From positions 79,144 through 143,143 of the forward strand of contig CAMPDV010001077.1 in NCBI GenBank assembly GCA_946699065.1: a stretch of DNA of 64,000 nucleotides, given 5' to 3'. This stretch comes from Loxodes magnus (lineage: Eukaryota > Ciliophora > Karyorelictea > Loxodida > Loxodidae). The notes under the pieces are model-generated. The model was not told the DNA's origin and searched no databases. It was given only the letters and a program-made list of their open reading frames with translations. Both the position numbers and the translations under genes were made by a program. Below, in pieces: positions 8,205-55,451 of this stretch (positions are counted from its first letter, which is position 1; each line of letters begins with the position of its first letter).

Positions 8205-9290
8205 ATGGAGAAAAAATATACGGAGAAAAAAGAAAAGCAATTTACTAAAAGTATTTTTTTAAGAAAACTCTTAAGAGCGAGAAACCACATTCTAGGGAAA
8301 ATATCTCTACTTCATTTTAAGTATGAAATTCTGCCTAACTTATGCTACTAAAAGTTAATAAATAAAATCAGTTATGACTAAAGTAAAGGTATTTCTTTAA
8401 TATTTTTAGACTAAGTTCTTACTGGTCACATTTCAGCTGTTTTATCGGTAGCCATATCAAGTGACTTGAATTGAATTGTATCAGGTTCTTACAATCCTGA
8501 AAATTCGATAAAGATCTGGAATTTCCAGACAGGTACTCTTCAAAGAACTATAACGGGACATATTTCATATGTTGAATCGGTAGTAATCTCCTCAGACTCT
8601 AAATATATTATATCAGGATCTTACGATAACACAATCAAGATCTGGAATTTATAGACTGGTGCTCTCCAAAGAACTTTGTCGGGACATACTTCTCCTATTA
8701 CCTCGGTAGTAATCTCTCCGGACTCTAGCTATATTGTATCGGGATCTTATGACAAAACTATAAAGATCTGAAATTTCCACAATGGAACTCTCCAAAGAAC
8801 GTTAACGGGACATATTTCTTACATTTACTCGGTAGTAATCTCCTATGACTCTAGATATATTATATCGGGATCTGATGATAAAACTATAAAGATCTGGGAT
8901 TTCTAGACAGGTCAGCTTGTGCGAACTCTTACTGGGCATTCATTATCAGTTAGATCGGTGATAGTGCCTAAGGATAATAGGTATATCATATCAGGTTCTT
9001 ATGACAGTACTATTAAGATATGGGACTTCTCTTCTGGTTAGTGTATTCGTACTCTTCAAGGTTATACAAGGGGCGTATCAAGTATTCAGTTAAGTGCTGA
9101 TTCAAGTGTAATATTTTCTGGTTCTTTCGATAAAACAATCAAGATTTGGAACTTTGATAAGGGTGAGTGTATCTAGATTTTGTAAGGGCATACAGATCCA
9201 ATATATTCTATAGCATTGAGTGTTGACAATTGATGGTTGGTATCGGGAGGATTTGACAAGACGATAAGAAAGTGGAGAGTTTCGAGTTGA
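8205..9290 (+). CDS. Seven-bladed WD40 repeat protein, family copy A
   Basis: ATG 8205, intron 8389-8409 (21 nt, phase 1), stop TGA 9288-9290: 354 residues. The N-terminal 65 residues are basic and helical (L-R-K-L-L-R-A-R-N-H). Seven repeats of about 42 residues then follow, each with GH, V-V-I-S, S-G-S-x-D-x-T and I-K-I-W, enough for one closed propeller. Internal TAG and TAA fall at the Gln of N-L-Q-T-G and L-Q-G-H; TGA falls at the Trp of K-I-W-N-F-H (8769). Copies B, C and D keep start, intron, blade number and end. WD40 propellers bind proteins or peptides and have no enzymatic activity; the ligand is unknown. Residues after GH and before the blade Asp vary strongly between copies, as on a diversifying binding face. 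The 3' flank diverges with frame-breaking indels, supporting this TGA as the true stop. Confidence 0.9.
8389..8409 (+). other. 21-nt mini-intron in WD40 gene A
   Basis: Starts GTATTTC and ends TTTTTAG. The equivalent introns in B (32289-32310), C (41992-42013) and D (55246-55267, minus) are 22 nt because of one extra T. All four downstream exons remain in frame only if the segment is removed. Confidence 0.9.
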
Positions 9291-9864
9291 GTAACTTGCT
9301 ATTTGACTTAATTAAATTTTACGATTAAATATATAAGATATTGGTTATTTATTTAAATGAATGTTTAATGATAACTATTTTTTTTAGTTTTATGAAGTGT
9401 TTGCTTTATATATTTATTTAAAATTTGTTATATTGTTAAATATTCTTGGTTTAAAATAAAGGTTGAGTAATATAGGTTAAGAAATTAGTGAGGTATGTTG
9501 ATTTAAAGTGGTAATGTTTAAAAATATTTAAAATATAATTTTGGTAATAAAAGACGTATAATAAGTTTAAGTTTAAATTTATTCTATAAAATTTTATAGA
9601 TTTATTTTTAGATTTTGTAAAAATTTAAAGTTAAGTAAAAATTTTCAATTATTTTTGTGAAGTAGTTAAAATATTATTTAAAAGGCAAAGTTGGTTTATA
9701 ATCTTGATTACAATTTAAAAAATTTAATTAAATGTTTCATTTTATTTATATTATTATTAATTATTTACTTTTTATGATTGATATTTATTATTAATTATTA
9801 TTAATTATTATTAATTATTTATTTATTATAATTTTAAATTTTAATATTTAAGTTTAATATTTTA
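9291..9864. other. AT-rich 3' flank of WD40 gene A with simple repeats
   Basis: The sequence is related to the flanks downstream of genes B, C and D. It contains a short tandem array of TTATTAA-type units at about 9780-9833; comparable arrays lie near 33660-33720, 43270-43315 and, inverted, 53806-53880. No gene seen. Confidence 0.55.
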
Positions 9865-9865
9865 T

Positions 9866-10600
9866 GTTTCCGATTGGAAAATTAAATTTTCAGATGGTAA
9901 ATTTTTTATTTATCTTTCAGGTTTAGAGCATGGATTTCATTAAAATAAAAAATTTGCTTTTTTGCTCAGCGTTTTACACTATCAAAGATTTTTGGAATGG
10001 AATAAATTTAATTATTTCGTGATAAAAATTTCTAAGCAGGAATCATTTTTTTAATTTCGTAATAAAAAATTTTAAAATTGGAATAAAAATTTTGAAAGTA
10101 ATTTTTAAAAAATGTTTTTAACATTTCTTAGAAAAGCGTTTCTAAAATTATTTTGAAAATAGTTATCTAAAATCGCTTTTGAAATAAAATTTGGAAATTA
10201 ATTTAAAAAATCTTAGAATTTTTTTAAGGAATTTTTTTGAAAATTTTTTTTGATAAACATTTCTGGGACGGTATATTTTTTTTAATATATTAAAAAAGGA
10301 AAAATTTTGAATTTTGAATTTTGAAATGCTAATTTAATTTTTTAAGTTATATGTTAATAAATATATTTAAATATGTTTATTCTTGTGTTTAAGTTCAATA
10401 ATAAATTTTAATTTTTATGTTAAATATGTTTCGTTTCCGATTGGAAAAATAATTTTTCTGATAATAAGTTTTATTTATTCTTAGTCTTAAGAGCTTAAAT
10501 TTCATGAAAATAAAAAATTTGTTTTTGCTCAGCGTTTTACACTACAAAAAATTTCTAGGACTGAATAAATTTTTTGATTTTGGGATAAAAAATCCTAAAT
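9866..10600 (+). repeat. Tandem copies of a hairpin-containing dispersed repeat
   Basis: Two adjacent copies (from about 9868 and 10434) each begin with the perfect inverted repeat TTTCC-GATT-GGAAA. About 100 bp later each has the block GCTCAGCGTTTTACAC (9964 and 10527), followed by a conserved segment ending near GGAATAAATTT. Inverted copies lie at 53395-53765, with weaker relatives near 11020 and 52800-52850. No coding frame is evident. Confidence 0.6.
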
Positions 10601-11143
10601 AGGAATAAAATTTCAAGAAAAAATTCCAAATTTAAAAGATTTCTGAGAAAAAAAAGGAATAAAATAAATTTATATTAAAATAGAATTTGGAAATCTTTTT
10701 TGTTGAAATGGTATTTTGTAAAATAAAAAACATTTTGTTAGGAGATTTTTTGATTTTAAAAATTTTTAACTAAATTTATTTGTTTTTTTTAAAAAAAAAA
10801 AAACTTTGATAAAGTAAATTATTTTTGAAATCATAAAAAAATTATTGTTTATGCTTTGGAAAAAATATAATTTTTAATTTTGAAATTATTTTCGAGTAGA
10901 TGAAAAAATTCGCTTTAAAAATTTTTAATGTTATAAGAATTTACTTAAATGATAAGGATCTCAATAAAATGGAGATATGATAAAATAAACCATGAAATCG
11001 TGAAAATATTATCCTTTTTTTCACTCTGAGTTATTAACTACAAAAGATTTTCAGGATGGATAAATCCTTTTCTTAAAGAGATAGAATTTAAAAGATTTGA
11101 AAAGTTTTTTAAATGAATTTTAAAAAGTAAATATAAAAAAATA

Positions 11144-12202
11144 AATGATAATTTTAGGAAGAAATAAATTAGTAAAAAAACCTCTATAAGAGTCCTTACC
11201 GTTTATAATAGATATTATTAATTGTTAAAAAACCAATCTAAAATAGCTAAAAAATCTCTTTATAAAAATATGATCAATCAAATAGAAAAAATGAGGTATA
11301 ATGCATCTGTAATAATAAATTTTAGGCCAATCTACGAAGAATCCAAACAATTAATTAAACGAGGATCTAAATAATATATCTAACCTAACTATATCAAATA
11401 TAAAAATAAAAACTTATTAATCAAGTTTAAAAAACTGTTTTATTATAATAATAAGAAAAACATTAAAAATTTAAAAAAATTAGCAAAAATGCCTTGAAAA
11501 GAGCTTACTACGAGCAATTTATCTATTTTTTAGTTTGCGAAAGAAGTTAATTTAGAAGAGAAAACGATTTTTTAAGAAAAAATTGCAATATTAAGTATTT
11601 TTTCTCTTTAAAATTTTTCTCATTCTGTAATATTAAAAGGAATAGCTTTAAAGATAAACTTTCTGATTATTAGCAACTTGAATATATCTACTGTGCATGT
11701 AGAAAATCGATTTTATTTATTAATCTAAAATTTTGAATTCATAATGAAGCTATTTTATTAAAGTTGAAAACTTAAAAAAAATTGATTGATTATTTATCAT
11801 ATAAAAACATTTGCTAGTAAACTATATAAATAATTTGAATATATGCAAAATTATAAAAATCTTCACTTTCTTGTAAATTATCTTATATTTCCATCTAAAA
11901 TAAGAATAAAATTATATTCTAATATTAAATAATACGAATTACCAAAATGAAAGTGTAAATAATTAAGAAATAAATATAGTTTTCATTATATCAAAAAAAG
12001 GTTAAAAGAAAAGCTTTAATCTTTTGTATAATTAAAACAATATACAAAGTGTAAGTTAATAACTATTATAATTATATCTATAAAAAATGGCAAATATTTT
12101 GTACAATATAAAAAGAAGCATATATAGTATAATAAAAAGCAAAGTTTCTACTAAGCCGATAATGCTAATAGTATACAATTTCATAAATAACCTTAATAAT
12201 GA
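11144..12202 (+). CDS. Possible protein-coding gene, unknown function
   Basis: One frame reads plausibly for about 350 codons to TAA TAA TGA (TGA 12200-12202). The N-terminal region contains R-V-L-T-V-Y-N-R-Y-Y-Q-L-L-K, faintly like the LYR motif of mitochondrial assembly factors, then a basic helical stretch and a C-terminus ending H-K-Q-P-Q-Q. The start is uncertain: an in-frame ATG lies at 11270, but similar-quality sequence continues upstream to about 11144. A handful of internal TGAs would be Trp. In this code open frames are cheap, so the evidence is composition and continuity only. The LYR resemblance is a hint, not an assignment. Confidence 0.35.
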
Positions 12203-12636
12203 GTATTTTTTGTTTTATTCTAAATTATTAGAAAACTAAATAATAATTTTTAATTTAAGCATTTCTTTAATAAATGTTTGCTTTAATATATAATATAGTA
12301 TTTTTTAATTTAAGATACTAAATATTTATAAACATAATAATATTTAAAGTGCTTTATTTAGTAGAAGAGTTAAAAAACAACTAATTTAAATTTAAAAGAT
12401 CTTATCAAGAAATTAAATTAAAATGTTTTAATATTCATTTTCTAATTAAAAATAGTTATTATTTATTGTTCATTGATCTATTTTATTTATATTTTAAAGA
12501 TTGTAATTATATGTTTTCATAATGTCTGAAAAAAACTGAAAAATTGCTAGATTATTTAAAGATAAAAAATTAACTCTTAAAATAAATCATTTTATAAGAT
12601 AAACAGAAATAAGAGGAATTATAATTAAAAAAAATT

Positions 12637-12903
12637 CTAACAAACAAATATATAAGACAAAATATTAATTTTATAAGAGATCAATTAAAGTTGAGCAAGA
12701 ATTTGAGAGAAAAAATATTACAGTTAATATCAAAATATTGTAATCCAAAAGCCATAGATGCAAAAATTGATGCTCAAATTAAACTACAAATAGATTTATT
12801 ATTTGGTAAATTAATCTAGAAATAAGAAATATGGTATTGCTTTAACAGATTTATTGAGAAGTTTAATTTATCTTCAAACTTAATATCTTTTTTATTTATT
12901 ATT
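12637..12903 (+). other. Short candidate coding fragment
   Basis: A frame free of TGA for about 89 codons gives a helical, Lys/Gln/Ile-rich peptide including L-R-E-K-I-L-Q-L-I-S-K-Y-C-N-P-K. No second copy or known domain is visible. It may be an exon or a remnant. Confidence 0.25.
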
Positions 12904-21468: not shown

Positions 21469-21470
21469 AA

Positions 21471-22383: not shown

Positions 22384-25300
22384 ATGTAAGATGAATGGTA
22401 ATAGAAAATAAATAAAAAGTATGATAGATTGAGTATAATTATATGGTTTACTAATAATAACTGCAAGTATTATTATTATATCATACAATTACTTATTATA
22501 ATCTATTTAACATTAATTTTAATTATTATATCCTTTTATAAACTAAATACTATTTATATTTTTAATTCCTATATCATTTAACATTTGTAACACCATAATA
22601 AATTTTTTTATTTAAAAGTATTAGGGATTTCAATAACTTTAAGTTTCATTATAACTTAGATTATTAAAAAGAATATTCAATTACAAAGAAAAAAGTGCTT
22701 AAGTATAAAATAAAAAAATCTGTAGGAGTATCATTAATTGCTTCTCTCAATCTTAGTATACTAAATAATCTCCTAAAATCATTAAAAAAATTAAATTCAT
22801 ACCTAGGAGGAAATAAATTTATGCTCTAAGAGAGATTCTTAATATGATTGTCTTGAGGTCTGTAGCTATGTTTACTTTATGCTTTAATGAAACTTACTCA
22901 AAGTTAATATAGTAACGTAAGGCAAGACTTATAATGGAATATTTCTTGTACTGTGGATACTAATGAGATTGGCAATTATCTTTCCGAATTAAATTTATTT
23001 AGCAATAAATTAAAAATTAATCCTTATATCTAATCTATTATATCCTTAATAGGTTATTTTCTTTCTTATCTAGCAAAGTTTAAGGTTTTATAGTATTGTA
23101 ATTTAATAATAGCTTGAAAGTAATAAATTATAGAAGCTATTCTATTAATTTTAGCTTTAATAAATGAGATTTATTTTATTTTAAGTTATTTAGTTTAAAA
23201 ATAACTAAAAATAGATGAAAATATCTAGATTATGTAAAAAGGGATATGTAATAATTAAGTAGCAGTTAGTAAAATAGCAAAACTAGTTACTTTAATAGAG
23301 AATTATAGGGAACTTTCTCTTCACTAAATTATAATAAAGATTAATTTAGATTTGAATTATAAGTATGAAGCATATATTACATAATACATTTTATATCATT
23401 AATCATATTAATTATATATAAGTATAAACAGAAACATTAGAGAATACTACTTTAATTTTAGACTAAATAAAACATCATTATTGATGTTAAAAAATTAAAT
23501 TAATCAAACAAATTACAATTATAATTAATTTAATTTTACATTAATGCAGCTAAGATTAAATAAAAACTAAATAAACCAACAAATTAAAAAGGAAAGTAGA
23601 TAAAAATAGCAAAAAAACTCAACCGCAAATTAAAATTATATGTTAAGATATAAGAAATTGGCTTTTTTATTAAAAGGAAATTATAAAATCCTGACGGAAT
23701 GATAAATTTATATTGCCATTCATGAAATCTTAACTTCAATTATGAATAACCAATTAGGATGCTTAGCTTGTATTAGATATTAATAATGTACTAAAGTATA
23801 AATCAAAAACATGACAAAAAGTAAAATAAAAATAATGGATTGTAAGGGATTTTGGAAATAGATATTTATTAAAACTCTTATAACGTAGAATAGTAAATTA
23901 AAATATATTTGAATTAATCCTTTTTTGAGAAATATAAAATTTTAGAAATACTGAGAAGTTTGGAAAGTAGAATAATTTGCAAATGTTCTCATTAGATGTA
24001 AGACTAAGTCGAGATAAATAACGAAAGCTTAAATTTAATAAAAATTAATATAATCTAATATCTAATAATATTTATTAATTTGAAAAATATAAGAAATAAG
24101 CATTACTTTTCGAAGATGAATTATGAGATTTTTTACATATGACTAAAGCAAACTTTACTCCGAATCGTTTATTTGAGAGTAGTAGCAAAGAATTTAAAAA
24201 AATATAACTTGTTATGAATTGATTCTATTATTTAGTATAGGAAAAAAAGTAATTACTATAAGAACTAAAATTAAAAAAATAATAATCTAATAAATTACTT
24301 TTTTAGATTCTAAAAGTATAAACAAAAATCTTTTACTTAAAATTGCTAAAATTAACTCATTTTTATATAAATCTGTGACATTAAGAAGATACTGACTGTA
24401 TATTTAAAAGAAATAATTCTACGGAAAGTTACAATGAAGATGCGTTTTAAATATTTGATACAGAATTAATAAACAATAAACATTATCCAACAAAATTAAC
24501 TTATAAATTCAGGAAAAAGACTAGAAAATGAAAAATAAAAAAATAAAGTTAAACTTAAAATATTAGAAATTATAGATATTCAACTATAAATAAATTAAAA
24601 GCTACAAATTCAATTTTGCAAAGCAAAATATCTAATAAATACTTCTTCCATTAGGATCAACTGGAATAGGAAAATTTAAACTATTAAAAATATTTAATAA
24701 TATGATACTACTAATTAAGTAAAATCCTGGAAATTATAAGAAATTGGCATAATTCCTAAACATACTAACACCTTATTCATTTCATAATTTACCAGCTTTT
24801 AGTAATTGATTAACTGTTTCAAAATAAAAATAAAGAAAGAGTGAAAATAATTAAAATGAGGTAGATTATTAATAGTAGACTAAATAAATATGTTAGCATC
24901 ATATATTTGAAAATTTATAAATAATATTAAAAGAAATTGCTAATAAATAGGTACCAATTGGAAATTACAATATAATATATGTTGGTGCCTTAGGATGAAT
25001 ACTACCAATAAATGAAATTTATTATATTGATTTAAAAAAGTTAAAGATTGTTCAGATTTAATAGTTGGATTGTTATGTTCCAATTTAATAAATATAATAA
25101 TTTACTTACGATAAGAAATAAGGTAATAAATTAAGAATTTTATTCGTTCATAGGATTGCCGAAAAACTAGAAATTAATAGAGATTCATTCGCTAATAAAC
25201 GCATTGATAGAAAACCTTAGATCTATTGTCAGCAATACATTAAGTAAAATAAATTTGAATGGAGTTTGATTAAATAACTTTTGATGCGAAAGATGATTGT

Positions 25301-25440
25301 ATATGCTTCCAAAATATCAACAAAGAAAAATGAAATCATAAAGTAAGTTAGATTATGCATAACGTACTTTTAGACATTCATATCTTTCTTGTATTTTTAA
25401 ATATTTAATCTTATAAATGAATCGATATAAAAATTAATAT
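22384..25440 (+). repeat. Segmental duplication block 1, unit 1
   Basis: About 3 kb nearly identical to 33725-36735, with scattered substitutions and small indels (for example 23 nt missing from unit 2 near 34318). It begins near 'atgatagattgagtataatt' in both units. With block 2 it forms tandem units of roughly 10-11 kb. Confidence 0.85.
22855..25290 (+). pseudogene. Decayed transporter-like gene, unit 1
   Basis: At about 22905-22990 one frame reads V-R-Q-D-L-Q-W, later D-T-N-E-I-G-N-Y-L-S-E-L. This resembles the coupling segment of ABCB-type ABC exporters (R-Q-D-I-G-W-F-D..E-I-G-E-L). Hydrophobic stretches follow. At about 24645 a glycine-rich G-S-T-G-I-G-K looks like a weak P-loop but lacks the usual Ser/Thr after Lys and is too far downstream for a compact half-transporter. 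Unit 2 has frame-breaking differences (23-nt deletion, +2 nt near 36230), so neither copy looks functional. The ABC link rests on one motif. Confidence 0.3.
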
Positions 25441-25742
25441 TCTAGTCTACCACTCTAGCAATTAAAAAACAGGCTTCTCATTTTAGTCTATAAAGCTAAA
25501 TTTCTACTTTTTATTATTATTGCAGTTTAATGTATTTATTTAAAGATATTCCTTCAAGAAAGATTACTTTTTGAGCTACTTAAATCTATTTTTTAAATAA
25601 AATTTGGTTTTTTTCTTACTTTTATATATTAAAAAATAAAGACATTGAAGATTGTAGCTTATTGGCTTAATTTACTTATGATTTCATCTGTAAGAAAAAT
25701 AAATAAAAATAGAAATTAAATTTTTGATTTGATCTTTGAACT

Positions 25743-26640
25743 ATGCTTATAGCAGATGTTGAGGCTTTTCTAAAAATTGGATGAGAGAATAAAAAGCTTC
25801 AAATGTAAATTTACTAACAGATATAAGAGTCTTTCGTGGAACTGTAAACGGGTCTGAATTTTATGCCAAAACGAGAAGAAAAACCAAAGGTTTCTTGGTA
25901 TAATGAAGAGATAGGATAAACATGTTAGCAAGATTAAACTAAAAAAGAAGTAGCAATCGATGAAAAAATTTGTGCTCCATAGAGAATAAAACTGTAAGAG
26001 TAAACCAAAGAAAACCATTAAGTTTTGCAGTAAAAAAGCTTTTAAAGCAAAATATTATAATCCACATTAATTCAGAAAAGATTGACAATAAATAGAGTGA
26101 AGCTAAATAAGTTAGCAACAGCTAATAGAATGAATAGCGATATTATAAATATAGATAGAAAGATATAGAAGAAATGAACATCCTTTTGAGTAAAAGCAGA
26201 GAAAGTAAGCGGGCATTTTTTACATAACCTCTAGAAGTAATTGAAACTAACTCTGACTATTTAGAAGAGTATAAAAAATTACGGAATAACACAGAGCTTA
26301 AACAATTGTGCATATACAAGATATGAAGGAATAGGCAGAGATAGGTAAAATTTACTATTTTAAGGTGCAGATTTATAAAAAAACCTTTTCATTAGTAAAC
26401 GAGAGCTAAAATAAAGAAGAACAAAATAAATTTCTGAAAGGTTTACATATTTGTCGAGGTGATAAACACTTAGATGTTACGATTCAGGGAAAAAACAATT
26501 GCCAAATACCAGAAAAATAAAATTATCCTTATTTTAAGAAGGAAACATCAGAAGAGTAAGAGAAAAAGAGCTTAATGCAATTCTATTATTTATTAATTTT
26601 TAGTAAGCAAAAACATGCTAAAACTACATTCTTTTAGTGA
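25743..26640 (+). CDS. Coiled-coil protein with a possible filamin/TRIM-type C-terminal domain
   Basis: ATG 25743; exons 25743-25993, 26023-26268 and 26295-26640, with two predicted introns of 29 nt (GTAAGAG...TTAAG) and 26 nt (GTATAA...CACAG). Both restore one continuous frame, checked codon by codon. It ends TTT TAG TGA, with stop TGA 26638-26640, giving about 280 residues. Residues 1-165 are helical and Gln/Lys/Glu-rich, with one TGA-encoded Trp (K-I-G-W-E-N-K-K). Residues 166-250 look like a beta domain: V-H-I-Q-D, then I-G-K-I-Y-Y-F-K-V, then H-L-D-V-T-I. That order recalls filamin/ABP280 repeats of TRIM-like proteins, but this is inference. Base composition is less AT-rich than its flanks, and the gene is absent from unit 2, so it was gained by unit 1 or lost by unit 2. 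Confidence 0.55.
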
Positions 26641-27339
26641 TAGTAATTTTTTTCCTATTACCTGGTCTAATATATGCCTTATATTAATTAATTAAGTTTA
26701 TAACTAATATAAGAAGCTTAATAGCAAATCATCAATCTTTGTTTTCTATTATTATTTTTACTTATTTAAGTTTAGCTAATTATTACTTTTAACAAAATGT
26801 TTTAATATCTTCTCTATATTATATTAAACAAACACTATCAAGTTTATAATTATCAAATAAATGCTATTCGATACTTATTAGTAAATAAGTATTAGAAAAT
26901 CTCAAAATGTAATTGATATTTTAGCTTTATTCCTAGTTATATTATTTCTTAAGAATCTTACTAATCTTCACTTTTAATCTAACATATTATAATTATAAAG
27001 TCGTACAATATTATTCAAGTCTATTTGCTAATAGCCTATGGATAAAAGAAATAATCATTTAAGGCTCTTTAGAATTTTCCACCTATTGGGTAAATCTTTT
27101 GCGAAAATTCCAATATTCATAGAATTTCTATTCCAGGAATTTGTTTGAAGGATCAAATTTTGTATTCGTTTTTTTCAAAAAGTCTTTAGCCTTTTTAGCA
27201 TTATATTGTTTAATAGCCAAAAATATAATAAATTAAGCATATTAACTATTTCCACTATAAAATTAAAAGTTCTACAATAGTATATAGATGTGCTATTACT
27301 AAGATACATGGTTAATAATTATTTAAATGTTATAAGTAT
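26641..27339. other. AT-rich stretch unique to unit 1
   Basis: No gene or RNA-like island recognised between the two-intron gene and duplication block 2. The corresponding part of unit 2 (about 36735-36840) is only about 100 bp. Confidence 0.4.
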
Positions 27340-27764
27340 ATCTCTTATAGTCTTTACATTAAAGCACTAAATATATAATACTAATAAGCTGCTTTGTTAA
27401 AATAAAGGGTTGCTAATAGTCTTAGTAACTGTAATATAATAATGCTAGGCTATTAAAATTAGGATATAGTGATTAGTTAATTAAGCTAGGTTGTTAATCT
27501 TATATCCTTGCTACTTTAATATCTAATTATTTGTCTATTTAGGTTAAAATAAGTTGCTATTAAAATAACAAGCTTTTACTTCTTTTAAATATATTAAGGT
27601 TTACCATTATTTGTAGTTATAGTGAGTGAGGTGTAATTAGCTTACTACGTTTGAATACCAATCAGTTTAATAGATTCAAGATAGTGAGATCTAATAAAAA
27701 CCTTAGTCTAGTCTAGTAATATGTGAAGCTTAAAAACTTACTTGAAGTTGTTTATTGGCAATTC

Positions 27765-33724: not shown

Positions 33725-36700
33725 TAATAATGAAAAGTATGATAGATTGAGTATAATTATATGGTTTACTAATAATAACTACAAATATTATTATTATATC
33801 ATACAATTACTTATTATAATCTCTTTAGCATTAATTTTAATTATTATATCCTTTTATAAACTGGATACTATTTCTATTTTTAATTCCTATTTCATTTAAC
33901 ATTTGTAACAGCATTCTAAAGTTTTTTATTTAAATGTATTAGGGATTACAATAGCTCTAAGTTTCATTATAACTTAGATTATTAAAAAGAATATTCAATT
34001 ACAAAGAAAATTTAAAAAAGTGCTTAAGTATAAAATAAAAAAGTCTGTAGGAGTATCATTATGTGCTTCTCTCAATCTTAGTATACTAAATAACACCTAA
34101 AATCCTTAAAAAGATTAAATTCATACCTTGGAGGAAATAAATTTATGCTCTAAGAGAGATTCTTAATATGATTGTCTTTAGGTCTGTAGCTATGTTTACT
34201 TTATGCTTTAATGAAACTTACTCAAAGTTAATATAGTAACGTAAAGCAAGACTTATAATGGAATATTTCTTGTACTGTGGATACTAATGAGATTGGCAAT
34301 TATCTTTCCGAATTAAATTAATCCTTATATCTAATCTATTATATTCTTAATAGGCTATTTTCCTTTCTTATCTAGCAAAGTTTAAGGTAAAGTATTGTAA
34401 TTTAATAATAGTTTAAAAGTAATAAATTATAGAATTTATTCTATTAATTTTAGCTTTAATAAATGAGATTTATTTTATTTTAAGTTATTTAGTTTAAAAA
34501 TAACTAAAAATAGATGAAAATATCTAGATTATGTAAAAAGGGATATGTAATAAATTAAGTAGCAGTTAGTAAAATAGCAAAACTAGTTACTTTAATAGAG
34601 AATTATAGGGAACTTTCTCTTCACTAAATTATAATAAAGATTAATTTAGATTTGAATTATAAGTATGAAGCATATATTACATAATACATTTTATATCATT
34701 AATCATATTAATTATATATAAGTATAAACAGAAACATTAGAGAATACTACTTTAATTTTAGCTAAAATAAAACATCATTATTGGTGTTATAAAATTAAAT
34801 TAATTAAACAAATTAGAATTATAATTAATATCATTTTACACTAATGCAGTTAAGATTAAATAAAAACTAAATAAGCCAACAAATTAAAAAGGAAAGTCGA
34901 TAAAAATAACAAAAATACTGAACCGCAAATTAAGATTATATGTTAAGCTATAAGAAGTTGGCTTTTTTATTAAAAGGCAATTATAAAATCCTGACGAAAT
35001 GATAAATTTATATTGCCATTCATGAAACCTTTACTTCAATTATGAATAACCAATTAGGATGCTTAGCTTGTATTAGATATTAATAATAAAGTTTAAAACC
35101 AAAAATATAGCAAAAAGTAAAGCTAAAAATAATGGATTGTAAGGGATTTTGGAAATAGATATTTATTAAAACTCTTATAACGTAGAATAGTAAATTAAAA
35201 TATATTTGAATTAATCCTTTTTTGAGAAATATAAAATTTTAGAAATACTGAGAAGTTTGGAAAGTAGAATAATTTTAAAATGTTCTCATTAGATGTAAAA
35301 CTAAGTCAAGATAAATAAAGAAAGCCTAAATTTAATAAAAATTAATCTAATCTAATAATATTTATTAATTTGAAAAATATAAATAATAAGCATTACTTTT
35401 TGAAGATAAATTATGAGATTTTTTAAATATGACTCAAGCAAACTTTACTCCGAATCGTTTATTTGAGAGTAATAGCAAAGAATTTAAAAAATATAACTTG
35501 TTATGAATTGATTCTATTATTTAGTATAGGAAAAAAAGTAATTACTATAAGAACTAAAAGTTTAGGAATCGGTAATCTTATAAGTTACTTTTTTAGATAC
35601 AAAAAGTATAAACAAAAATATTTTACCTAAAATTGCTAAAATTAACTCATTTTTATATAAACATGTGACATTAAGAAGATACTGACTGTATATTTAAAAG
35701 AAATAATACTACGGAAAGTGACAATGAATATGCGTTTTAAATATTTGATACAGAATTAATAAACAATAAGCATTATCCAACAAAATTAACTTATAAATTC
35801 AGAAAAAAGACTAGAAAATGAAAAATAAAAGAATAAAGTTAAACTTAAAATATTAGAAATTATAGATATTCAACTATAAATAAATTAAAAGTTACCAATT
35901 TAATTTATTTAATTTATTTAATTTTGAAAAGCAAAATATCTAATACATACTTCTTCCATTAGGATCAATTGGAATAGGAAAATTTAAACTATTAAAAATA
36001 TTTAACAATATGATACTACTAATTAAGTAAAGTCCCGGAAATTACAAGAAATTAACTAAACTTTTAAACATACTAACACTTTATTCATTACATAATTTAC
36101 CAGCTTTTAGTAATTGATTAACTGTTTCAAAATAAAAATAAAGAAAGAGTGAAAATAATTAAAATGAGGTAGATTATTAATAGTAGACTAAATAAATAAG
36201 CTAACATCATATATTTGAAAATTTATAGATATAAGATTAAAAGAAATTGCTAATAAATAGGTACCAATCGGAAATTACAATATAATATATGTTGGTGCCT
36301 TAGGATGAATACTATCTATAAATGAAATTTATTATATTGATTTAAAACAGTTAAAGATTGTTCAGATTTAATAGTTGGATTGTTATGTTCCAATTTAATA
36401 AATATAATAATTTACTTACGATAAGAAATAGGGTAATAAATTAAGAATTTTATGAGTTCATATGATTGCTGAAAAATAGAAATTAACAGAGAGTTAATCT
36501 TAGATCTATTGTCAGCAATACATTAAGTAAAGTAAATTTGAATGGAGTTTGATTAAATAACTTTTGATGCGAAAGATGATTGTATATGCTTCCAAAATAT
36601 CAGATAAGATAAATGAAATCATAAAGTAAGTTAGATTATGCATAGCGTACTTTTAGACATTCATATCTTTCTTGTACTTTTAAATATTTAATCTTATAAA

Positions 36701-36735
36701 TGAATCTATATAAAAATTAATATTCTAGTCTACCT
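33725..36735 (+). repeat. Segmental duplication block 1, unit 2
   Basis: Second copy of 22384-25440, starting about 500 bp after the end of WD40 gene B, so the units are head to tail. Confidence 0.85.
34195..36600 (+). pseudogene. Decayed transporter-like gene, unit 2
   Basis: Same remnant as 22855-25290, with the V-R-Q-D-L-Q-W and N-E-I-G-N-Y-L-S-E-L segments retained. A 23-nt deletion near 34318 and a 2-nt gain near 36230 break the frame, and the weak P-loop reads G-S-I-G-I-G-K near 35965. Not functional as a single protein. Confidence 0.3.
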
Positions 36736-37269
36736 CTTTAATATCTTCTATAAAAGCTATTATTTATATCTAAATATATAAAAGTCTTACTCTATATATA
36801 TTATAGCCATTCTATTACTTTTATCTATATCCTAGACTATATCTCTTATAGTCTTTAAATTAAAGCTACTATATATATAATACTAATAAGCTGCTTTGTT
36901 AAAATAAAGGGTTGCTAGTAGTCTTATTAACTGTAATATATTAATGCTAGGGTATTAAAATTAGGATATAGTGATTAGTTAATTAAAGCTAGATTGTTAA
37001 TCTTATATCCTTGCTACTATAATATCTAATTATTAGTCTATTTAGGTTATAATAAGTTGCTATTAAAATAAGAAGCTTTTGCTTCTTTTAAGTATGTTAA
37101 GGTTTAGCATTATTTGTAGTTATAGTGAGTGAGGTTTAATTAGATTACTACGTTTGAATAGCAACCAGTTGATTAGACTCAAGACAATGAAATCTAATGA
37201 AGCTTAGTCTAGATTAGTAATATGGGAAGCTTAAAAACTTACTTGAAGTCGTTGATTGAAATTCCTCAG

Positions 37270-40200
37270 ATCTTAGTATAGTGATAAAGGAACTGTAATT
37301 GAAAAGTCTGCAAGATAAAAAGTTAATTCTATCTTAATAAAAAACAGTGCTCTAAAAGACAGAGTCATATATCATTTTCTATAGTCCAAATTTTAGTAAA
37401 AAGTAGAGAATGTTGAATGAAGCAAATAATGAACACTAAGAACGTGCTTAGAATTAATATAAAGCGAGGTTTCGAATAATCTCATATTTGTCATTAGTTG
37501 CTTGCCTAGTTGTGTCTATGAATTCATCTAAGAAATATTTGAAAGCATCAAATACTTCCAAACGAGAGATTCTTATTAGTGATGCTAATTTCTCTAAGGA
37601 TTGCTAAAAATTTTGAACTCTTTGATGAAGGTTGTGGAGAACATTAAATTGCTGTCTGATTTCTACTTAACTTCATTGCTAGAATTGCGATATTTTTATA
37701 GTAGGAATTATTTGTTAAACAGAAAAAGAAAAATATATGGTGGATTAATCAAGCTTTGTAAGTTTTTTTACTATATTTTGATGTATATAAATAAATAAAT
37801 AAATTTGATTATAGAGCGCATAGCACTCTTGCTGGTGCACAGCTCTTCAAAAAATGTTTCATTCTGACAAGAATGTTTGTTAATGATAAAATTATTCAGT
37901 ACTGATAAAAATGTTCAATACTGATATAATTTTAGAATAATCGTAATCTTTAATACTTGCTGGAGGTCCAAGGACATGGCAGGATTGTGTCTCATTGCAT
38001 CACTAAAGCAGAGGACGACATGTGTCAATTATGGGTACTTAAATTCCCCACCTCTAATAAAGCTTGCAATATTATTTCTTTTTCGTTCCAGAATTAAAAA
38101 TAAATTAAGCCAAGCCAGAGTCGAAGGTCTAAGAATCCTATGTCTCGAGGTCAAGCCAAAGCAGAGGAAGACATAAAATCGATTATGGGTACTTAGCTTC
38201 CCCAACCTCTGATGAAGCCGTCCCTTGCTGTTCACCTTCGAACAACTATGGCGATTTAATAATATATAATAATAAGCCTGATATCCAGATAAAAATCAAA
38301 GAAACAGAAAAAAATTAAATAGCAAAAATAAAGCATTCCCAGTATGAAGCTTTATCTTTAAAATAAAGTCACATCTTCAAAGATAAAAAGCAAATAAACG
38401 GTTAACTTTTAATCCAGACCTCGTTGGATATAAACTGGAATATTTGAAAAGAAGCTAAATATAATTAAAAGATTATCTGATAAAACTATCATAGATTTAC
38501 AAGAATTCTTACTTTTGAAAGAATTATTTGAGCTAAAGGAATTAAAAAAAGAAAAAATTATAGGAATATCCCAGCAACGCAAGATATTTAAAATTAAAAA
38601 ATCTCAATGAGTCTCCTATTGTTTTTAACATGTGTAATATAATTGCCAAGTAAAACTGACTAATAAAAAATGTTTAACCTGCCTGCCTTTAATTTTTTGA
38701 ATTGCAAGTTTAATCTCGGAGCTACGCTACATTGAGAACTTTAATCTAGCAGTAAAAAGATACTAAACAACTTTTTTTAAAAGGAAAGAAAAATGCAAAA
38801 AAAGTAATAAATCTAAGCTATAAGATTTAAGGATTAAGGAACATGTATCATTTACTTACCTAATAAGTAGAATCTGGAGCTTAAAACAAAAAACATTAGA
38901 TAGATTTATTTTTAAGATTTTCGTAAAAGAAAATAGACAACTTCATATTATTCTTTTTAAAAATTTACAATATTGAGGTTAGGAAGTAGATTTACCTTCA
39001 AAGTAGCTGCTTGCTTATATGAATCAATTAAGATAGTTTAGTTGCTGGCTTAATTTCTTTCAGTTTATCTTCTTAAAATTTCTGTTAAAGAAAGACAAAC
39101 TAAGTGTATGAGCGAGGAACTACATACCAATGAACAGTAAATTGAAATGATTAGAGAAGAAAGCAAGTTCAAACTGACCAAAAAACAACTTTAAAGTACT
39201 AGCCTCAGAGTTAATAAATCCATTAAAGTATTGAATTGATTATTTATTATATTGCAGCTTTATTAGTAGAACTAATAAATTATTAAGATTACTAGACTCA
39301 GTATCTTTAATTAAAGATACCCTAATTCTGTATAATACTTCTTATTTATGTATCTTAATAAACTAACAAGATACATTAAACCTTTAAATATACGATATAT
39401 TTCATTCTAAGCTTTTATTTACAAGAGATTTGCTAATAAGTATCAATAAACTAATTTAAAAATAAAATCTAGCTTTAATACTTTTTATGGTAGTTAATAT
39501 TTTAGGTTTATTTTAGCTTAGAGATATAAGGAAATCAATTAGGGTAATATGATCTAAATGAAGAAAAGGGAAGTTAAGCAGATAGAGCTTTAAAGGATTA
39601 GACTAATAATGTTTTCAAGAGACTAAAGTATGAATGCTTTTGTAATTTTGGGATTTAAATTTATTCTTATTGAATAGTGTAGTGAATGAAGCAGCAAATT
39701 CAAGTCTAAGATATTGCAAAGTTGGAGAAAAAGACAGCAATTTTTATATTCCTTAGAATATAAAAAATAAACGCAACTGAAAATTTTTGATTTATGATAA
39801 TCAAGAAATTGAAAAACTTAAAGAGTATGTAAATTATGCTACTTCGAAAATTTAGATCACAAGCTATTGCATGAATATTTCAATCTAAATTTTATAAAGG
39901 CCATTGAATACTTGTCGTTCTAGAAGGATTTATATTTCTTCGTTTTTTCAAAAGGACAATTCTTAGATTTATAAGTTAAAAGTAGACATTTTGGCAACCC
40001 CTTTGGACATGTGCATTTCTCATTTATTCGCAGCATTTTTATTTAAGACTTTGATTAATTAAATTTTAGTGACTTTTTTTTTATTCATTTAGAAACACTG
40101 GAATTCTATAATTATTTAATTTTTCTGTAAAACTTTTGTTACTCTATTTTATCTATAGAAATACTTGTTAAACCATGCTCAATATCCAATCTGTTACTAC
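37270..40200 (+). pseudogene. Unknown gene X, unit 2 copy, split by a SINE-like element
   Basis: The first part (37270-37790) reads as a helical protein with E-F-I-Q-E-I-F-E-S-I-K and L-K-I-L-N-S-L-M-K. A SINE-like element on the opposite strand then interrupts it. From about 38470 one frame runs through I-I-D-L-Q-E-F-L-L-L-K-E-L-F-E-L-K and on to about 39825 without a break; one A is missing relative to unit 1 (near 39830), after which H-E-Y-F-N-L-N-F and F-L-D-L-Q-V continue in the next frame. This copy is otherwise better preserved than unit 1. Product unknown; several hydrophobic helices suggest a large membrane-associated or repeat protein. Confidence 0.45.
37797..38252 (-). mobile_element. 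SINE-like dimeric retroposon, copy 2, inserted in gene X
   Basis: Reverse-strand copy of the 21471 element: CCATAG plus hairpin at the 38252 end, two CAGAGG...CCTCTG units, the 'atcagta'-type words, and a (TTTA)n tail at the low-coordinate end. Unit 1 keeps the empty site (about 28265-28290, 'gatatatataatatt'). The filled site has similar 'tatataa' words on both sides, consistent with a short target-site duplication. Insertion therefore post-dates the segmental duplication. Confidence 0.7.
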
Positions 40201-41807
40201 TTGAAAGCTTAAATATTTTTAAATATCAAGCATGCCTTTTTGCTGATATTGATTATTTTAATTTATTCAGAAAAAAATGAAATTTAGAAGCTATTTCATT
40301 CTAGATTGCAAATGATATTCTTGAATATTTTAATTAATAAACTTCAATTTAAGATTTAAAACTATTAATTTGTAGGTTTAATTTTTTTCTCACTTTCTTT
40401 ATGTTTATCTAAATCCTTTCTTATTACTACTAAAAACTGTATTCTTTTTAAATCTTATGACTAAAGTTAGCTAGACTAGGATTTATTGTGACATTAATTT
40501 TAGTTTTAAATAACTTATACTAGATAATATAATACTTATATTATCTCATACTTATTACAAATAAGCATATTATATTAAGTTTACTCTTTCTATTAATTCA
40601 GAAAATAATAATAGAAGATATTTAAAAAGCTTTCTTTTTTAAAAAAGCTTATAATTTTCTTAGTATCAAACAAATCGTTTTAATAAAGAGAGTACTAATA
40701 GTGGTAACTATATTTTTTGGATAAGTATAGAATAATAGATTTAAGTTTTTATCTTTAAATAATCTAGAATAATTTAGGTATTATTAATTAGAAATTATAA
40801 TTACAAAAATAACATAAATATAATATTAGTTTGCTATAAAAAGAGAAAGTTATCTAAATGTATTAATTATAACTAATCTAATATCTAAATTAAAGAGAAA
40901 TTAATTAATAACTAATAAAGCTAAAAGGATAAAATATTAAGTATTTTAATAGACATAATTAAACATATTAAAGAATATTTTAATAATAAAATTAAATATT
41001 ACTATTTAATAATTGTAAGATATAATTAGTGATACACCATTTATAGTTAGTTTAAATATTTACTTTCTACTAATTATATTTATTACATTTATATAACATA
41101 TTTTGCTTAGAATCAACATTAAAAGTAATAAATTATATTAGTTTATTATTTTAAGAGAGACCTTTATAAAAAAAAGTTTTAATGAAATAGTAGTAAGAAA
41201 GCGGATAAATAAAAGATTTTATCTTATAAATACTAAAAATGCTTTGTTTTAAACAAATTGACGTTTTTTAATATTTATTTAAGCTAATTAATAAGAAACT
41301 TATTTTATTTCATTTTTTTTAATTAGTAAAAGCTTAAAGAAATCATTTTTTTGATTAAATGTAAGTGAAAAGTAATAATTAATAGCAATAGTTTTTAAAA
41401 AATGGTAATATTTTATTTATCATTTAAAAGGATCTACAACGAAATAAAGTTTTCTTATTAAGAGTCTTTGATTTAAAGTACAAATAAATTTTAATTAATA
41501 AATGTATATTAAAGTTATTATAATAAGGATATAAATTCTTCAATATAAAACTTTTGAAATAATAAATTGTCCTTTCATTTAAAAGTAAAGGATATAAAAT
41601 AATTAAATTGAAAAAGTTTGTACACTATTAGTTTAATATCTCGTCTTGTTTTAAGACAAAAATAGAATTAATAAATCAATTTTTTAGAAGATATTTATAA
41701 GTATGCTTAATAAATAATTTAATTGTTTAATTGTATTGAAATTAAATCAGTAAAATTTATTGAGTTATTTTAATTAATAGTTATTGAAGTAAGTTATAAA
41801 AATTAAA

Positions 41808-42891
41808 ATGGAGAAAAAATAAACGGAGAAAAAAGAAAAGCAATTTACTAAATGTATTTTTTTAAGAAAACTCTTAAGAGTGAGAAGCCACATACTAGGG
41901 AAAATATCTCTACTTCATTTTAAGTATGAAATTCTGCCTAACTTATACTACTAAAAGTTAATAAATAAGATCAGTTATGATCAAAGTAAAGGTATTTCTT
42001 TAATATTTTTTAGACTAAGTCCTCACTGGTCGCACTTTACCTGTTTACTCGGTAGCCATATCAAGTGACTTGAATTGAATTGTATCAGGTTCTGGATATC
42101 CTGAATATTCGATAAAGATCTAAAACTTATAGACTGGTGCTCTCCAAAGAACTATAACGGGACATACTTCATATGTTAACTCAGTAGTAATCTCCTCAGA
42201 CTCTAACTACATTGTATCAGCATCTCATGACAAAACCATAAAGATCTGAAACTTGTAGACTGGTTCTCTCCAAAGAACTTTAACGGGACATACTCACTAT
42301 GTTTACTCGGTAGTAATCTCCACTGACTCTAGCTATATAATATCAGGATCTTCTGACTAAACCATAAGGATCTGAAATTTCCTCAATGGTGATCTCCAAA
42401 GAACTATAATGGGACATACTGATATAGTTTTATCGGTAGTAATCTCCTTTGACTCTAGCTATATTATATCGGGATCTTACTAACCTATAAAGATTTGGGA
42501 TTTCTAGACTTGTCAGCTTGTGCGAACTCTTACTGGGCATTCAGGTTGTGCTTTATCGGTAAAAGTATCTAAGGATAATAGGTATATCATATCAGGTTCT
42601 TATGACAGTACTATTAAGATATGGGACTTCTCTTCTGGTTAGTGTATTCGTACTCTTCAAGGTCATACAGGTGTTGTAACAAATATTCAGTTAAGTGTTG
42701 ATTCAAGTGTTATCTTTTCTGGTTCTGATGACAGAACAATCAAGATATGGAATTTTGATAAGGGTGAGTGTATATAGACTTTGTAAGGGCATGCAGAATC
42801 AATAAATTCTATAGCATTGAGCCTTGATAATAAATGGTTGGTATCGGGAGCTGAGGACAGTACAATTAGAAAATGGAGGGTTTCGAGTTGA
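41808..42891 (+). CDS. Seven-bladed WD40 repeat protein, family copy C
   Basis: ATG 41808, intron 41992-42013 (22 nt), stop TGA 42889-42891; 353 residues. Collinear with A and B, except that blade 4 has lost one codon and its Asp (S-G-S-Y-Q-P-I-K-I-W). In blade 1 the terminal Trp is replaced by TAA, read as Gln (K-I-Q-N-L-Q). Variable sites are again distinct: blade 2 G-H-T-S-Y-V-N, blade 5 G-H-S-G-C-A-L, blade 7 G-H-A-E-S-I-N. The reading frame is preserved throughout despite many substitutions, which argues that the protein is under selection. Confidence 0.87.
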
Positions 42892-43319
42892 GTAACTTAT
42901 GATTTGACTTAATTAAATTTTACGATTAAAGATATAAGATATTGGTTATGCATTTAAATGAATGTTGAAGGGTAATAATGTTTGTAATTTTATGAAGTGT
43001 TTGTTATTTATTTATTAAAAGGTTGTATATTCTTAAATATTCTTGGCTTAAAAAAAAGGTTGAGTAATATAGGTTATTGAAATTAGTGAGGCATACGATT
43101 TAAAGTGGTAATGTTTAAAAATATTTAAAATATAATTTTGTTAAATGAAGACGTATAATAAATAAAGTTTAATTTTATAGATTTATTTTTAAGTTTTGTA
43201 AAAATTTCAGTTGAGTATAAATTTTAATTTTGTTGTGGAGTTGTTAAAATATGATTTATAAGGTTAAAGTTAGTTTATAATTTTGATTATTATTGATTAT
43301 TATTATATATTATTATATC

Positions 43320-52790: not shown

Positions 52791-52794
52791 TAAT

Positions 52795-53770
52795 CTTTTT
52801 TTATTTATCCATCCCGAAAATCTTTTGAAGTGTAAGACTCAGAGCTAAAAAATAAAAAATAATTGTTCCCAATTTCATTATTTACCTTTCTTTTCTCTCT
52901 TTTTAATTGAGATCCTTTTCAATTAAGTAAATTCTTATAAAATTTAAAAATTTTATCACTAGTTTTTCATTTACTTGAAAAGAAATTAAAATTTTTTAAA
53001 TTTTAGTTCCAAGTAAAAAAAAATTAATTTTTATCAAAAACATAAAAAATAACTTTTTTTTTATCATTTCAAAAAAATTAAACTTATCAAATTTTTTTTC
53101 TTGTAATAAAAAAGCAACAAAAATTTGCTAAAATAAAAAAAATTCAAATATTTTTCCTTAAAACAAAAATAAGTGTTTTCATTTTTACAAAATACCATTT
53201 TAAAAAAAAAATTTACAAATTATAATTATTCTAAAAAATTTTTTAAATTCCTATTTTTTTCGAAAATCTTTTATATTTGGAATTTTTTTTTAATTTTATT
53301 CCCTTTTTAGTTTTTTTATTCCGAAATAAAAAAATTTATTACTATTCAGAATTTTTATCCCGAAATAATTAAATTTATTCCATCCCAAAAATCTATGGTA
53401 GTGTAAAACGCTGAGCAAATAAAAAATTTGAAATTTTTCGAAAATAATTTTTTAATCAAAGGAAGCTATAAAAATTAATTTTCCTAAAAAAAAATCAATT
53501 TTTTTTTAAATTTTCCAACAAATATTTTCAAAAATCGCTTTCAAAACTATTTTATAAAATAATCTTTATACCACTTTAGAAAACTATTTTCAAAATTTTT
53601 TATTCCATTTTATTTTTTTTATCCCGAGATAATCGAATTTATTCCTTCCCAAAAATCTATGGTAGTGTAAAACGCTGAGCAAATAAAAAATTTGAAATTT
53701 TCATGAAATTCAGGCTCATAACCTGAAAGATAAATAAAACTTACTATCAAAAAATTTATTTTCCAATCGG
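52795..53770 (-). repeat. Inverted array of the GCTCAGCG/TTTCCGATTGGAAA repeat
   Basis: Reverse-strand copies of the repeat at 9866-10600: GTGTAAAACGCTGAGC at 53401-53416 and 53665-53680, a weaker copy at about 52826-52850, and TTTTCCAATCGGAAA near 53760. It sits downstream of WD40 gene D as the other array sits downstream of gene A, so it belongs to the duplicated WD40 flank. Confidence 0.6.
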
Positions 53771-54367
53771 AAACATAAAATATTAAACATAAAATTTAAA
53801 ATTTTATAATAATAATCAATAATAATTAATAATAATAGTTAATAATAATTAATAATAAATAATAAATAATAAAAAACAAAATTTAAAAAACAAAATTTTA
53901 AAAAAAATTTAATTTAAAATAAAATAAATAAAATATTTAATTTAATTTTTTAAATAATAATCAAGATTATAAACTAACTTTGCCCTTATCAATAATATTT
54001 TAACTACTTCACAAAAAATGAAAATTTATACTCAACTTGAAATTTTTATAAAATCTAAAAATAAATCTATAAAATTAAATTAAATTAAACTTAAATTTAT
54101 TATACGTCTTCTTTTATCAAAATTATATTTAAAATATTTTTTAACATTACCCACTTTAAATCAACATACCTCATTAATTTCGATAACCTATATTATTCAA
54201 CCTTTTTTAAACCAATAATATTTAAGAATATAGCAAATTTTAAATAAATATATAAAGCAAACACTTCATATAACGAAAAACATAATTATCATTAAACATT
54301 CATTTAAATGAATAACCAATATCTTATATTTAATCGTAAATTTAAATTAAGTCAAATAGCAAGTTAC

Positions 54368-55451
54368 TCAACTCGAAATCCTCCACTTTCTTATCGTATT
54401 GTCCCATGCTCCCGATACCAACCATCTATTATCAACACTCAATGCTATAGAATATATTCATCCTGTATGCCCTTACAAAGTCTATATACACTCACCCTTA
54501 TCAAAATTCCATATCTTGATTGTTTCATCCCATGAACATGAAAAGATAACACTTGAATCAACACTTAACTGAATACTTGATACAGAACTTGAGTGACCTT
54601 GAAGAGAACGAATACACTAACCAGAAGAGAAGTCCCATATCTTAATAGTATTGTCCCCCGAACCAGATATTATATACCTATTATCCTTAGACACTATTAC
54701 CGATAAAACTAAGTCTGAATGCCCAGTAAGAGTTCGCACAAGCTGACCAGTCTAGAAATCCCAAATCTTTATAGTTGTATCAGAAGATCCCGATATAATA
54801 TATCTAGATTCATAGGAAATTACTACCGATATAACTATATCAGTATGTCCCGTTATATTTCTTTGGAGATCACCATTGTGGAAATTTCAGATCTTTATGG
54901 TGTTGTCAGAAGATCCTGATACTATATAGCTAGAGTCAAGGGAGATTACTACCGAGTAAATTGTAGAAGTATGTCCCGTTATAGTTCTTATGAGAGAACC
55001 AGTCTATAAGTTTCAGATCTTTATGGTTTAGTCATGAGATCCTGATACTATATAGCTAGATTCAGGGGAGATTACTACTAATTTAACATGTGAAGTATGT
55101 CCTGTTAAAGTTCTTTGGAGAGAACCTGTCTGGAAATTCCAGATCTTTATCGATTTTTCAGGATATCCTGAACCAGATACAATTCAATTAAGATCACTTG
55201 ATATGGCTACTGAACAAACAGGTGAAGTGTCAGTGAGGACTTAGTCTAAAAAATATTAAAGAAATACCTTTACTTTGGTCATAACTGATCTTATTTATTA
55301 ACTTTTAGTAGCATAAGTTAGGAAGAATTTCATACTTAAAATGAAGTAGAGATACTTTCCCTAAAATGTGGTTTCTCGCTCTTAAGAGTTTTCTTAAAAA
55401 AATAATTTTAGTAAATTACTTTTCTTTTTTCTCCATTTAATTTTTCTCCAT
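54368..55451 (-). CDS. Seven-bladed WD40 repeat protein, family copy D (inverted)
   Basis: Minus strand: ATG at 55451, intron 55267-55246 (22 nt), stop TGA 54370-54368; 353 residues. A second in-frame ATG lies five codons downstream. It is collinear with A-C; the first G-H/R pair is shortened by one codon (L-T-D-T-S-P-V-C). Blade 6 reads S-C-S-W-D-E-T and blade 7 G-H-T-G-W-I-Y with Trp = TGA. Blade 1 shares S-G-S-G-Y-P-E with copy C, while blade 7 shares V-D-N-R-W-L-V with copy B, suggesting gene conversion or shuffling among copies. Frame intact. Confidence 0.87.

Follow-up and report, generated by a model that had tools for sequence, protein, structure and literature searches.

The 64,000-nt stretch of Loxodes magnus DNA analysed here (contig C1077, positions 79144-143143; hereafter the window), the end of which is also the end of the contig, carries four intact two-exon genes for WD40 proteins with seven blades, and these genes are members of a family with about 1,500 copies, arranged in clusters in the genome. 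Exon 1 and the framework of the propeller are under purifying selection, five positions on the top face of each blade are under strong positive selection, and tracts are exchanged between neighbouring copies. We consider it probable that these genes make up a large family, encoded in the germline, of soluble WD40 recognition proteins with seven blades that probably act inside the cell.

The window is AT-rich, with a GC (guanine plus cytosine) content of 15-27% in 4-kb steps, and under the standard code there was no stop-to-stop frame of 150 amino acids anywhere in it. The four genes start at 8205 (copy A), 32105 (copy B) and 41808 (copy C) on the plus strand and at 55451 on the minus strand (copy D), exactly where an earlier note on this DNA had placed them. 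They also share start, phase-1 intron, seven repeats and end, as it had described; each has an ATG, a 61-residue exon 1, a phase-1 GT..AG intron, seven WD40 blades and a terminal TGA. The intron is 21 nt long in A and 22 nt in B, C, and D; the intron of copy A has a T-run shorter by 1 nt, and the flanking frame is kept. When the WD40 copies were aligned, in-frame TAG or TAA was found at Gln positions and TGA at Trp positions, and TGA was the final stop as well. L. magnus uses translation table 27, in which UGA is both Trp and stop, and its introns have a mean length of 19.3 bp, 93% of them being at most 25 bp long (PMC11441545). The genes have the features of karyorelict (Loxodes) nuclear genes, with UAR read as Gln, UGA read as Trp inside the gene and as stop at its end, and introns mostly of no more than 25 nt. 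The statement of the earlier note that most framework codons are identical was slightly generous, since blade 1 has lost its GH pair in D and carries GR instead in both B and C, and one codon is missing from blade 4 of C.

The encoded protein has about 354 amino acids and a mass of 40 kDa and is basic; its N-terminal region begins with charged residues and has an isoelectric point of 9.9. Judged from these features it is probably a soluble intracellular protein. The WD40 profile PF00400 matched seven stretches in copy B (9.5e-74) and likewise seven in copy A (6.7e-70). The structure model of exon 2 reached a predicted local distance difference test score (pLDDT) of 96.7 and a predicted template-modelling score (pTM) of 0.92, and the fold is predicted to be a closed seven-bladed propeller. 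The 61 residues of copy A exon 1 gave no Pfam match above the cut-off; at E<=1 there was only a zinc knuckle below threshold (0.013).

To describe the variable positions, each blade was numbered from the L of L-T-G-H (offset 0), which places R1-2 at offset 6, R1 at offset 8, and D-1 at offset 24. This register follows the fingerprint of Wu et al., in which these are published contact positions (PMC3419727). The residues that the earlier note had quoted for the flanking positions of blades 1, 2, and 7 and for D-1 of blades 5 and 6 agree with our alignment, and the differences do cluster at the same sites in each blade, as it had claimed, and not by chance: among the 7,140 triplets of offsets 0-35, the triplet 6/8/24 ranked third for nonsynonymous divergence (pN). 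In the four window copies, the pN was 0.58 at R1-2, 0.44 at R1, and 0.58 at D-1. Offsets 5 (0.54) and 26 (0.46) were high as well, so the three sites named by the note were confirmed and the list was incomplete, R1-3 and D+1 behaving alike. There are five hot positions per blade, R1-3, R1-2, R1, D-1, and D+1 (offsets 5, 6, 8, 24, and 26), which makes 35 per protein.

In the model, offsets 5 and 6 lie in the loop before strand a (the d-a loop), offset 8 lies in a bulge near the start of strand a, and offsets 24 and 26 lie in the b-c loop. The d-a and b-c loops form what we take, by the usual WD40 convention, to be the top face; the face was assigned from the strands of the model and the published positions, not from coordinates. 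Over the 1,431 pairs of 54 genes, the pN was 0.42 in the top d-a loop, 0.50 in the bulge, and 0.36 in the b-c loop, and it was low off the face, with 0.088 in the bottom a-b loop, 0.095 in the c-d loop, and 0.037 in the core. The variable codons map to the top loops and the strand-a bulge, and neither to the bottom loops nor to the core. Compared with what base composition would give, Gly, Tyr, Ser, Asp, Asn, and Trp are over-represented on the face, as is typical of surfaces that bind partners.

Selection was evaluated with a custom codon likelihood model under code 27, using likelihood ratio tests (LRT) against omega = 1, where omega is the ratio of nonsynonymous to synonymous substitution rates (dN/dS). 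In the four window copies, omega was 4.14 at 21 a priori codons compared to 0.348 elsewhere (LRT 47.3, p 6e-12), and a three-class fit gave 0.15 for exon 1, 0.30 for the framework, and 3.8 for the 35 face codons. Because the earlier reader may have picked the positions after viewing the copies, the test was repeated on genes outside the window. In 19 distinct genes, a set that excludes the four window copies and the A-like loci L010 and L011, omega at the 21 sites reached 5.82 (LRT 301), and no offsets other than 5, 6, 8, 24, and 26 combined an omega above 1 with an LRT above 9. A further 29 distinct genes gave an omega of 4.07 (LRT 292) and the identical five offsets. Blade-by-blade local trees of 54 genes, which were used to lessen the effect of recombination, gave omega values of 2.65-6.19 in all seven blades (LRT 47-217). 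The divergence of the flanking noncoding DNA was 0.06-0.13 on average, compared to a hot-site pN of 0.53 in the window copies. These results indicate that dN/dS at the face sites is far above that of the framework, both in the window and in independent gene sets. Since the face exceeds the framework in this way and the variable sites avoid the bottom and the core, the proposal of a recognition family under diversifying selection, as made in the earlier note, is supported.

The genome searched comprises 705,730,643 bases in 7,843 contigs, and all copies analysed come from this one genome. A 29-nt exon-1 marker (at most two mismatches) was found at 756 + 788 = 1,544 sites and a 38-nt blade-5 marker (at most three mismatches) at 736 + 753 = 1,489 sites, while either pattern, when reversed, was found at none. 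Both totals count sites in an assembly that is diploid-aware, and allelic copies may be among them. Among the matches listed, the sites were clustered and often 10-20 kb apart; contig C13, for example, has 21 exact matches between 4.7 and 405 kb. The 29-nt degenerate exon-1 pattern gave no match in the collections viral_contigs and genome_contigs, which may omit records near Loxodes magnus.

The sequences of 63 copies were read, consisting of the four in the window, 29 loci (L010-L038) that were the best matches to copy A exon 1 (out of 40 that were scored among 1,743 candidates), and 30 loci (L039-L068) that were the first 30 exact exon-1 pattern matches by contig order and form a non-random sample. 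All but two of them (L015 and L016, which are frameshifted) are in frame; 59 have seven blades, L021 has five, and L063 has six. The GH pair of blade 1 is missing in some copies, and the intron is 22 nt long in 57 copies, 21 nt in four, and 23 nt in two. At an identity of at least 98% over more than 1.5 kb, the 63 copies collapse into 50 groups, and the genome totals are therefore somewhat inflated by allelic or very recent copies. Before the maximum-likelihood analysis, the two frameshifted rows, two with fewer blades, and five with identical coding sequences (CDS) were left out, leaving 54 distinct seven-blade CDS. These have 46 distinct 35-residue faces, and in the median pair 27 of the 35 face residues differ compared to 12.5% of the other residues. 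The CDS of copy A, L010, and L011 are almost identical, with no face changes, and copy A was not grouped with the other two at the above threshold, which includes the flanks. The mismatch of the flanks may reflect conversion of the gene body or merely indels in the flanks.

Exchange between copies was examined on C13 by permutation of the polymorphic sites. Beyond the threshold were 11 of the 180 diverged pairs, and the longest common tract had 114 sites (242 nt) compared to a permuted maximum of 42 (300 permutations). As for the blades themselves, the frameworks of blades 2-4 look partly homogenised (0.17-0.20), those of blades 5-7 differ strongly from the frameworks of every other blade (0.32-0.53) with equally variable faces, and blades 1 and 5-7 are not homogenised with one another. 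The earlier note had suggested a test for gene conversion among blades, and no copying from other blades was seen in the frameworks of blades 5-7. Ectopic blade-to-blade conversion as the sole source of the variability was rejected, because the frameworks of blades 5-7 are distant and yet their faces vary equally.

The genome also has long tandem arrays of 126-bp WD40-blade units, on contigs C119, C1503, C9, C1832, C620, C272, and others. A 5-kb stretch of C119 (L074) contains 35 units, 11 of them distinct, which are variable only at offsets 5, 6, 8, 24, and 26, and at offset 34 in two units. The overlapping loci L001-L008 on C1503 gave 41 distinct units in 185 occurrences, some of which were counted more than once; these units vary mostly at offsets 0-1, 4, 6, 8, 24, and 26, often by two or three bases per codon. 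The five hot positions of the genes are thus found again in a distinct group of sequences. The arrays form a second diversified WD40 class, which is possibly related to the about 1,500 genes.

Several observations weigh against the reading as a recognition family shaped by selection. The 12 youngest pairs, with a synonymous divergence (pS) below 0.02, show a single face change, which is counted in three pairs; the excess at the face first becomes visible at a pS of 0.02-0.1 and is nearly saturated by 0.1-0.15. Since the youngest pairs show almost no face change, the diversification is unseen over the shortest times. Of the remaining positions, offset 37 in one of the bottom loops comes closest to the hot ones: its omega was 1.47 and 1.60 (LRT 4.0 and 4.7) in the analysis that gave the 19-gene result and 1.31 in that of the 29 further genes, and the face is therefore not quite the sole place above 1. 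The pS of the hot codons themselves was 0.24-0.35 compared to 0.13-0.22 for the framework (three bins, pS above 0.1), and the pS of exon 2 (0.21) was higher than that of exon 1 (0.15). The raised pS may be due in part to path counting in multiply changed codons and in part to imported tracts. The first exchange test, with copies from many contigs, was weak, with an excess in two of 278 diverged pairs, both on contig C349; given the excess on C13, exchange seems to be mostly local. Finally, no signalling domain was found in the Pfam-scanned exon 1 and flanks, so the coupling of the propeller to a partner, as proposed below, is conjectural.

Four other explanations were weighed against these data. 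Under relaxed constraint, the exposed loops of a redundant and partly decayed multicopy family would simply drift, as the many redundant copies, the two frameshifted copies among 63, and the occasional loss of the blade-1 GH might suggest. This explanation is already contradicted and can hardly hold: drift caps omega at 1, whereas the sites show 3.35-5.8 (LRT 47-377 against 1); the bottom loops, which are exposed too, remain at a pN of about 0.09; the divergence of the flanking noncoding DNA is no more than a quarter of the pN of the face; and the reading frame is intact in 61 of the 63 copies. A local mutation mechanism, either targeted hypermutation or template-directed replacement, would produce the pattern with no selection on the protein. 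The changes are indeed strictly local and often affect two or three bases per codon, the pS of the hot codons is itself raised, and the WD40 arrays elsewhere, which vary at the same positions, could act as donors. But the pS of the codons beside the hot sites was 0.214 compared to 0.208 in other framework codons, and a local mutation hotspot is argued against because these neighbours are not raised. Moreover, the youngest copies hardly differ at the face and the frameworks of blades 5-7 lack copying from other blades, which makes this mechanism very unlikely in our view.

We also regard it as unlikely that the WD40 gene is the cargo or a part of a high-copy mobile element, with a face shaped by transposition conflict and not by host recognition. 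About 1,500 copies within repeated units, in an extremely repeat-rich genome (PMC11441545), and a reverse-transcriptase match nearby would agree with such an origin. However, no transposase, reverse transcriptase, or endonuclease Pfam domain was found on either strand of the 9 kb unit of copy A, and the copies are clustered among the matches listed, with two window units in direct tandem, as in recombination-driven gene families. A low but real probability remains for ubiquitin-ligase substrate receptors or similar adaptors, in which the face would pick cellular or foreign substrates for degradation. By analogy with known families, the top faces of WD40 propellers are classic substrate-binding surfaces, and the constant N-terminal region could dock to a ligase. 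Against this, the WDxR/DWD box that marks DCAF proteins of DDB1-CUL4, searched with regular expressions, occurred in none of the 54 distinct proteins, and a Pfam search at E<=1 found neither an F-box nor a SOCS or BTB domain in copy A exon 1.

If the genes form a recognition family, as we favour, each copy would recognise a ligand of its own with its top face, probably an intracellular protein that is polymorphic or foreign, and all copies would be coupled to one shared partner by their N-terminal region of 61 residues, which hardly varies. Exon 1 and the framework would then serve a common role, with the face setting the specificity, and new specificities might arise by duplication of the unit of about 9 kb, selected point changes in the face, and reshuffling of blades via gene conversion. 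Self/non-self recognition, mating type, prey sensing, or pathogen sensing, as listed in the earlier note, could each be served by such proteins, and the ligands might also be mobile elements or proteins of the cell itself. It is possible, though somewhat doubtful, that the family is an antibody-like germline repertoire of more than 1,000 intracellular single-domain binders, with a constant scaffold and about 35 selected 'paratope' residues. Such a repertoire would be renewed by duplication and blade exchange, and its targets would be proteins that are foreign or that vary genetically (viruses, endosymbionts, prey contents, mobile elements, or mates). Among plant and animal receptors, recognition repertoires with repeat domains are known to reach this size. 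If the recognition reading is true, a large recognition repertoire would have originated independently in a karyorelict ciliate, with site-specific diversifying selection like that of HET-E; the 35 positions would predict the residues of ligand specificity, and the family would represent hundreds or more natural variants of one binder scaffold.

The genes and the repeated units in which they lie are listed in Table 1. Upstream of the window, the same contig has further DNA that matches the whole gene (frame not read). The regions 3692-12712 and 22400-32100 were scanned against Pfam on both strands, and parts of 2.35-3.25, 15.5-17, and 43.3-46.9 kb were scanned as well. A six-frame scan of both strands of 3692-12712 gave no Pfam domain at E<=0.01 beyond those of the WD40 gene, and both strands of 22400-32100, upstream of gene B, gave none. 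Period-3 scans of the duplicated flanks showed no companion gene, although these scans are weak and flagged the gene itself, as positive control, in one window only.

Table 1. Features of the window (positions in the 64,000-nt stretch).
Feature	Position	Strand	Remarks
Copy A exon 1, conserved 61-aa N-terminal region	8205..8388	+	gene reading; exon-1 dN/dS 0.15-0.2 in window copies
Copy A phase-1 intron, 21 nt	8389..8409	+	
Copy A exon 2, seven WD40 blades, ends TGA	8410..9290	+	Pfam WD40 6.7e-70
Copy B exon 1	32105..32288	+	
Copy B intron, 22 nt	32289..32310	+	
Copy B exon 2, seven WD40 blades, ends TGA	32311..33191	+	Pfam WD40 9.5e-74
Copy C exon 1	41808..41991	+	
Copy C intron, 22 nt	41992..42013	+	
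Copy C exon 2, seven WD40 blades, blade 4 one codon shorter, ends TGA	42014..42891	+	
Copy D exon 1	55268..55451	-	
Copy D intron, 22 nt	55246..55267	-	
Copy D exon 2, seven WD40 blades, one codon fewer at blade-1 GH, ends TGA	54368..55245	-	
Repeated unit of about 9 kb around copy A	3692..12712	+	largely colinear pieces recur on contig C13 (L071-L073)
Unit with copy B, in tandem with the copy-C unit	22411..33744	+	pieces 86-92% identical
Unit with copy C	33729..43294	+	
Inverted unit with copy D	53616..56661	-	
Upstream portion of another unit, corresponding to 4747-7984, interrupted by the contig end	60714..64000	+	

Some other elements were seen in the neighbouring DNA. A decayed gene lies at 15500-17000 on the plus strand; it begins to match at a pentapeptide repeat (8.7e-8), after which stretches resembling WD40 occur in other frames. 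On the minus strand, a reverse transcriptase match at about 44899-45672 (RVT_1, 2.1e-32) runs in one frame under code 27 and is probably of the long interspersed nuclear element (LINE) type. A stretch of about 300 bp in unit B (31011-31313) has no counterpart at that place in units A and C, and a relative with 78.6% identity is found on C13 (L071:3114-3451). An element of about 160 bp occurs in both orientations at the edges of the duplicated units (21449-21613, 38112-38275, and 43297-43460), and is a possible breakpoint or short interspersed element.

In the open literature, no paper naming both Loxodes and WD40 was found by a search that did not cover spellings such as 'WD repeat', and the paper on the L. 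magnus genome does not use the word WD40 in its main text (PMC11441545). Among the closest known systems are the HET-E/D repeats of Podospora, in which positions 10, 11, 12, 14, 30, 32, and 39 were reported to have a high dN/dS (PMC12222747). Reduced by 6, a shift that we chose ourselves, they become 4, 5, 6, 8, 24, 26, and 33 and include all five Loxodes positions; by our own arithmetic, five random positions would all fall in the seven, at the best of 42 shifts, with a probability of about 0.001. In the Loxodes genes omega does not significantly exceed 1 at positions 4 and 33, and five of the seven Podospora positions, and no others, have an omega above 1 with an LRT above 9.

The Podospora HNWD/NWD genes (HET-E, HET-D, and HET-R) are likewise WD40 genes diversified at the face and exchanged between paralogues (PMC4986451), and exchange between paralogues was found here on C13 and C349. 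The Podospora genes number ten (PMC4986451) compared to about 1,500 in Loxodes. In addition, neither a HET nor a NACHT domain was found in the Loxodes genes, their blades 1 and 5-7 are not homogenised, and 59 of the 63 copies read are in-frame seven-blade propellers, unlike the HNWD/NWD genes. The likeness to fungal NWD/HET-E genes that the earlier note had drawn therefore holds for the WD40 positions and fails for the architecture: neither the surroundings of gene A (3692-12712, both strands) nor 22400-32100 upstream of gene B showed a NACHT domain, and no N-terminal death or effector domain (HET, HeLo, and the like) was seen in copy A exon 1 or the scanned flanks. Across the genome there were 31 weak NACHT matches (best 6.7e-7), which we do not connect with the WD40 family, and they say little because the model also matches in 11 of 14 control genomes.

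In fungal NOD-like receptors (NLRs), the repeat domains (WD40, ANK, and TPR) show positive selection on the binding surface and concerted evolution of the repeats, as here (PMC4986451). Fungal NLRs are NOD-containing receptors, whereas the Loxodes propeller stands alone behind a short N-terminal region. The Loxodes family works like a diversified WD40 sensor and is not a member of the NLRs. Other well-known propellers, such as WDR5, LIS1, RACK1, and the designed WRAP propellers, are conserved single proteins or designs and are not known as diversified families. Among ciliates, Tetrahymena has a family of leucine-rich repeat (LRR) genes with 90-bp exons, a protein-recognition repeat domain that expanded recently and has retroelements nearby (PMC6564038). 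It has another fold and was reported to be mostly under purifying selection, the term 'positive selection' being absent from the main text (PMC6564038). With about 1,500 genes in T. thermophila (PMC6564038), the Tetrahymena LRR family is the nearest ciliate parallel to the Loxodes family in scale.

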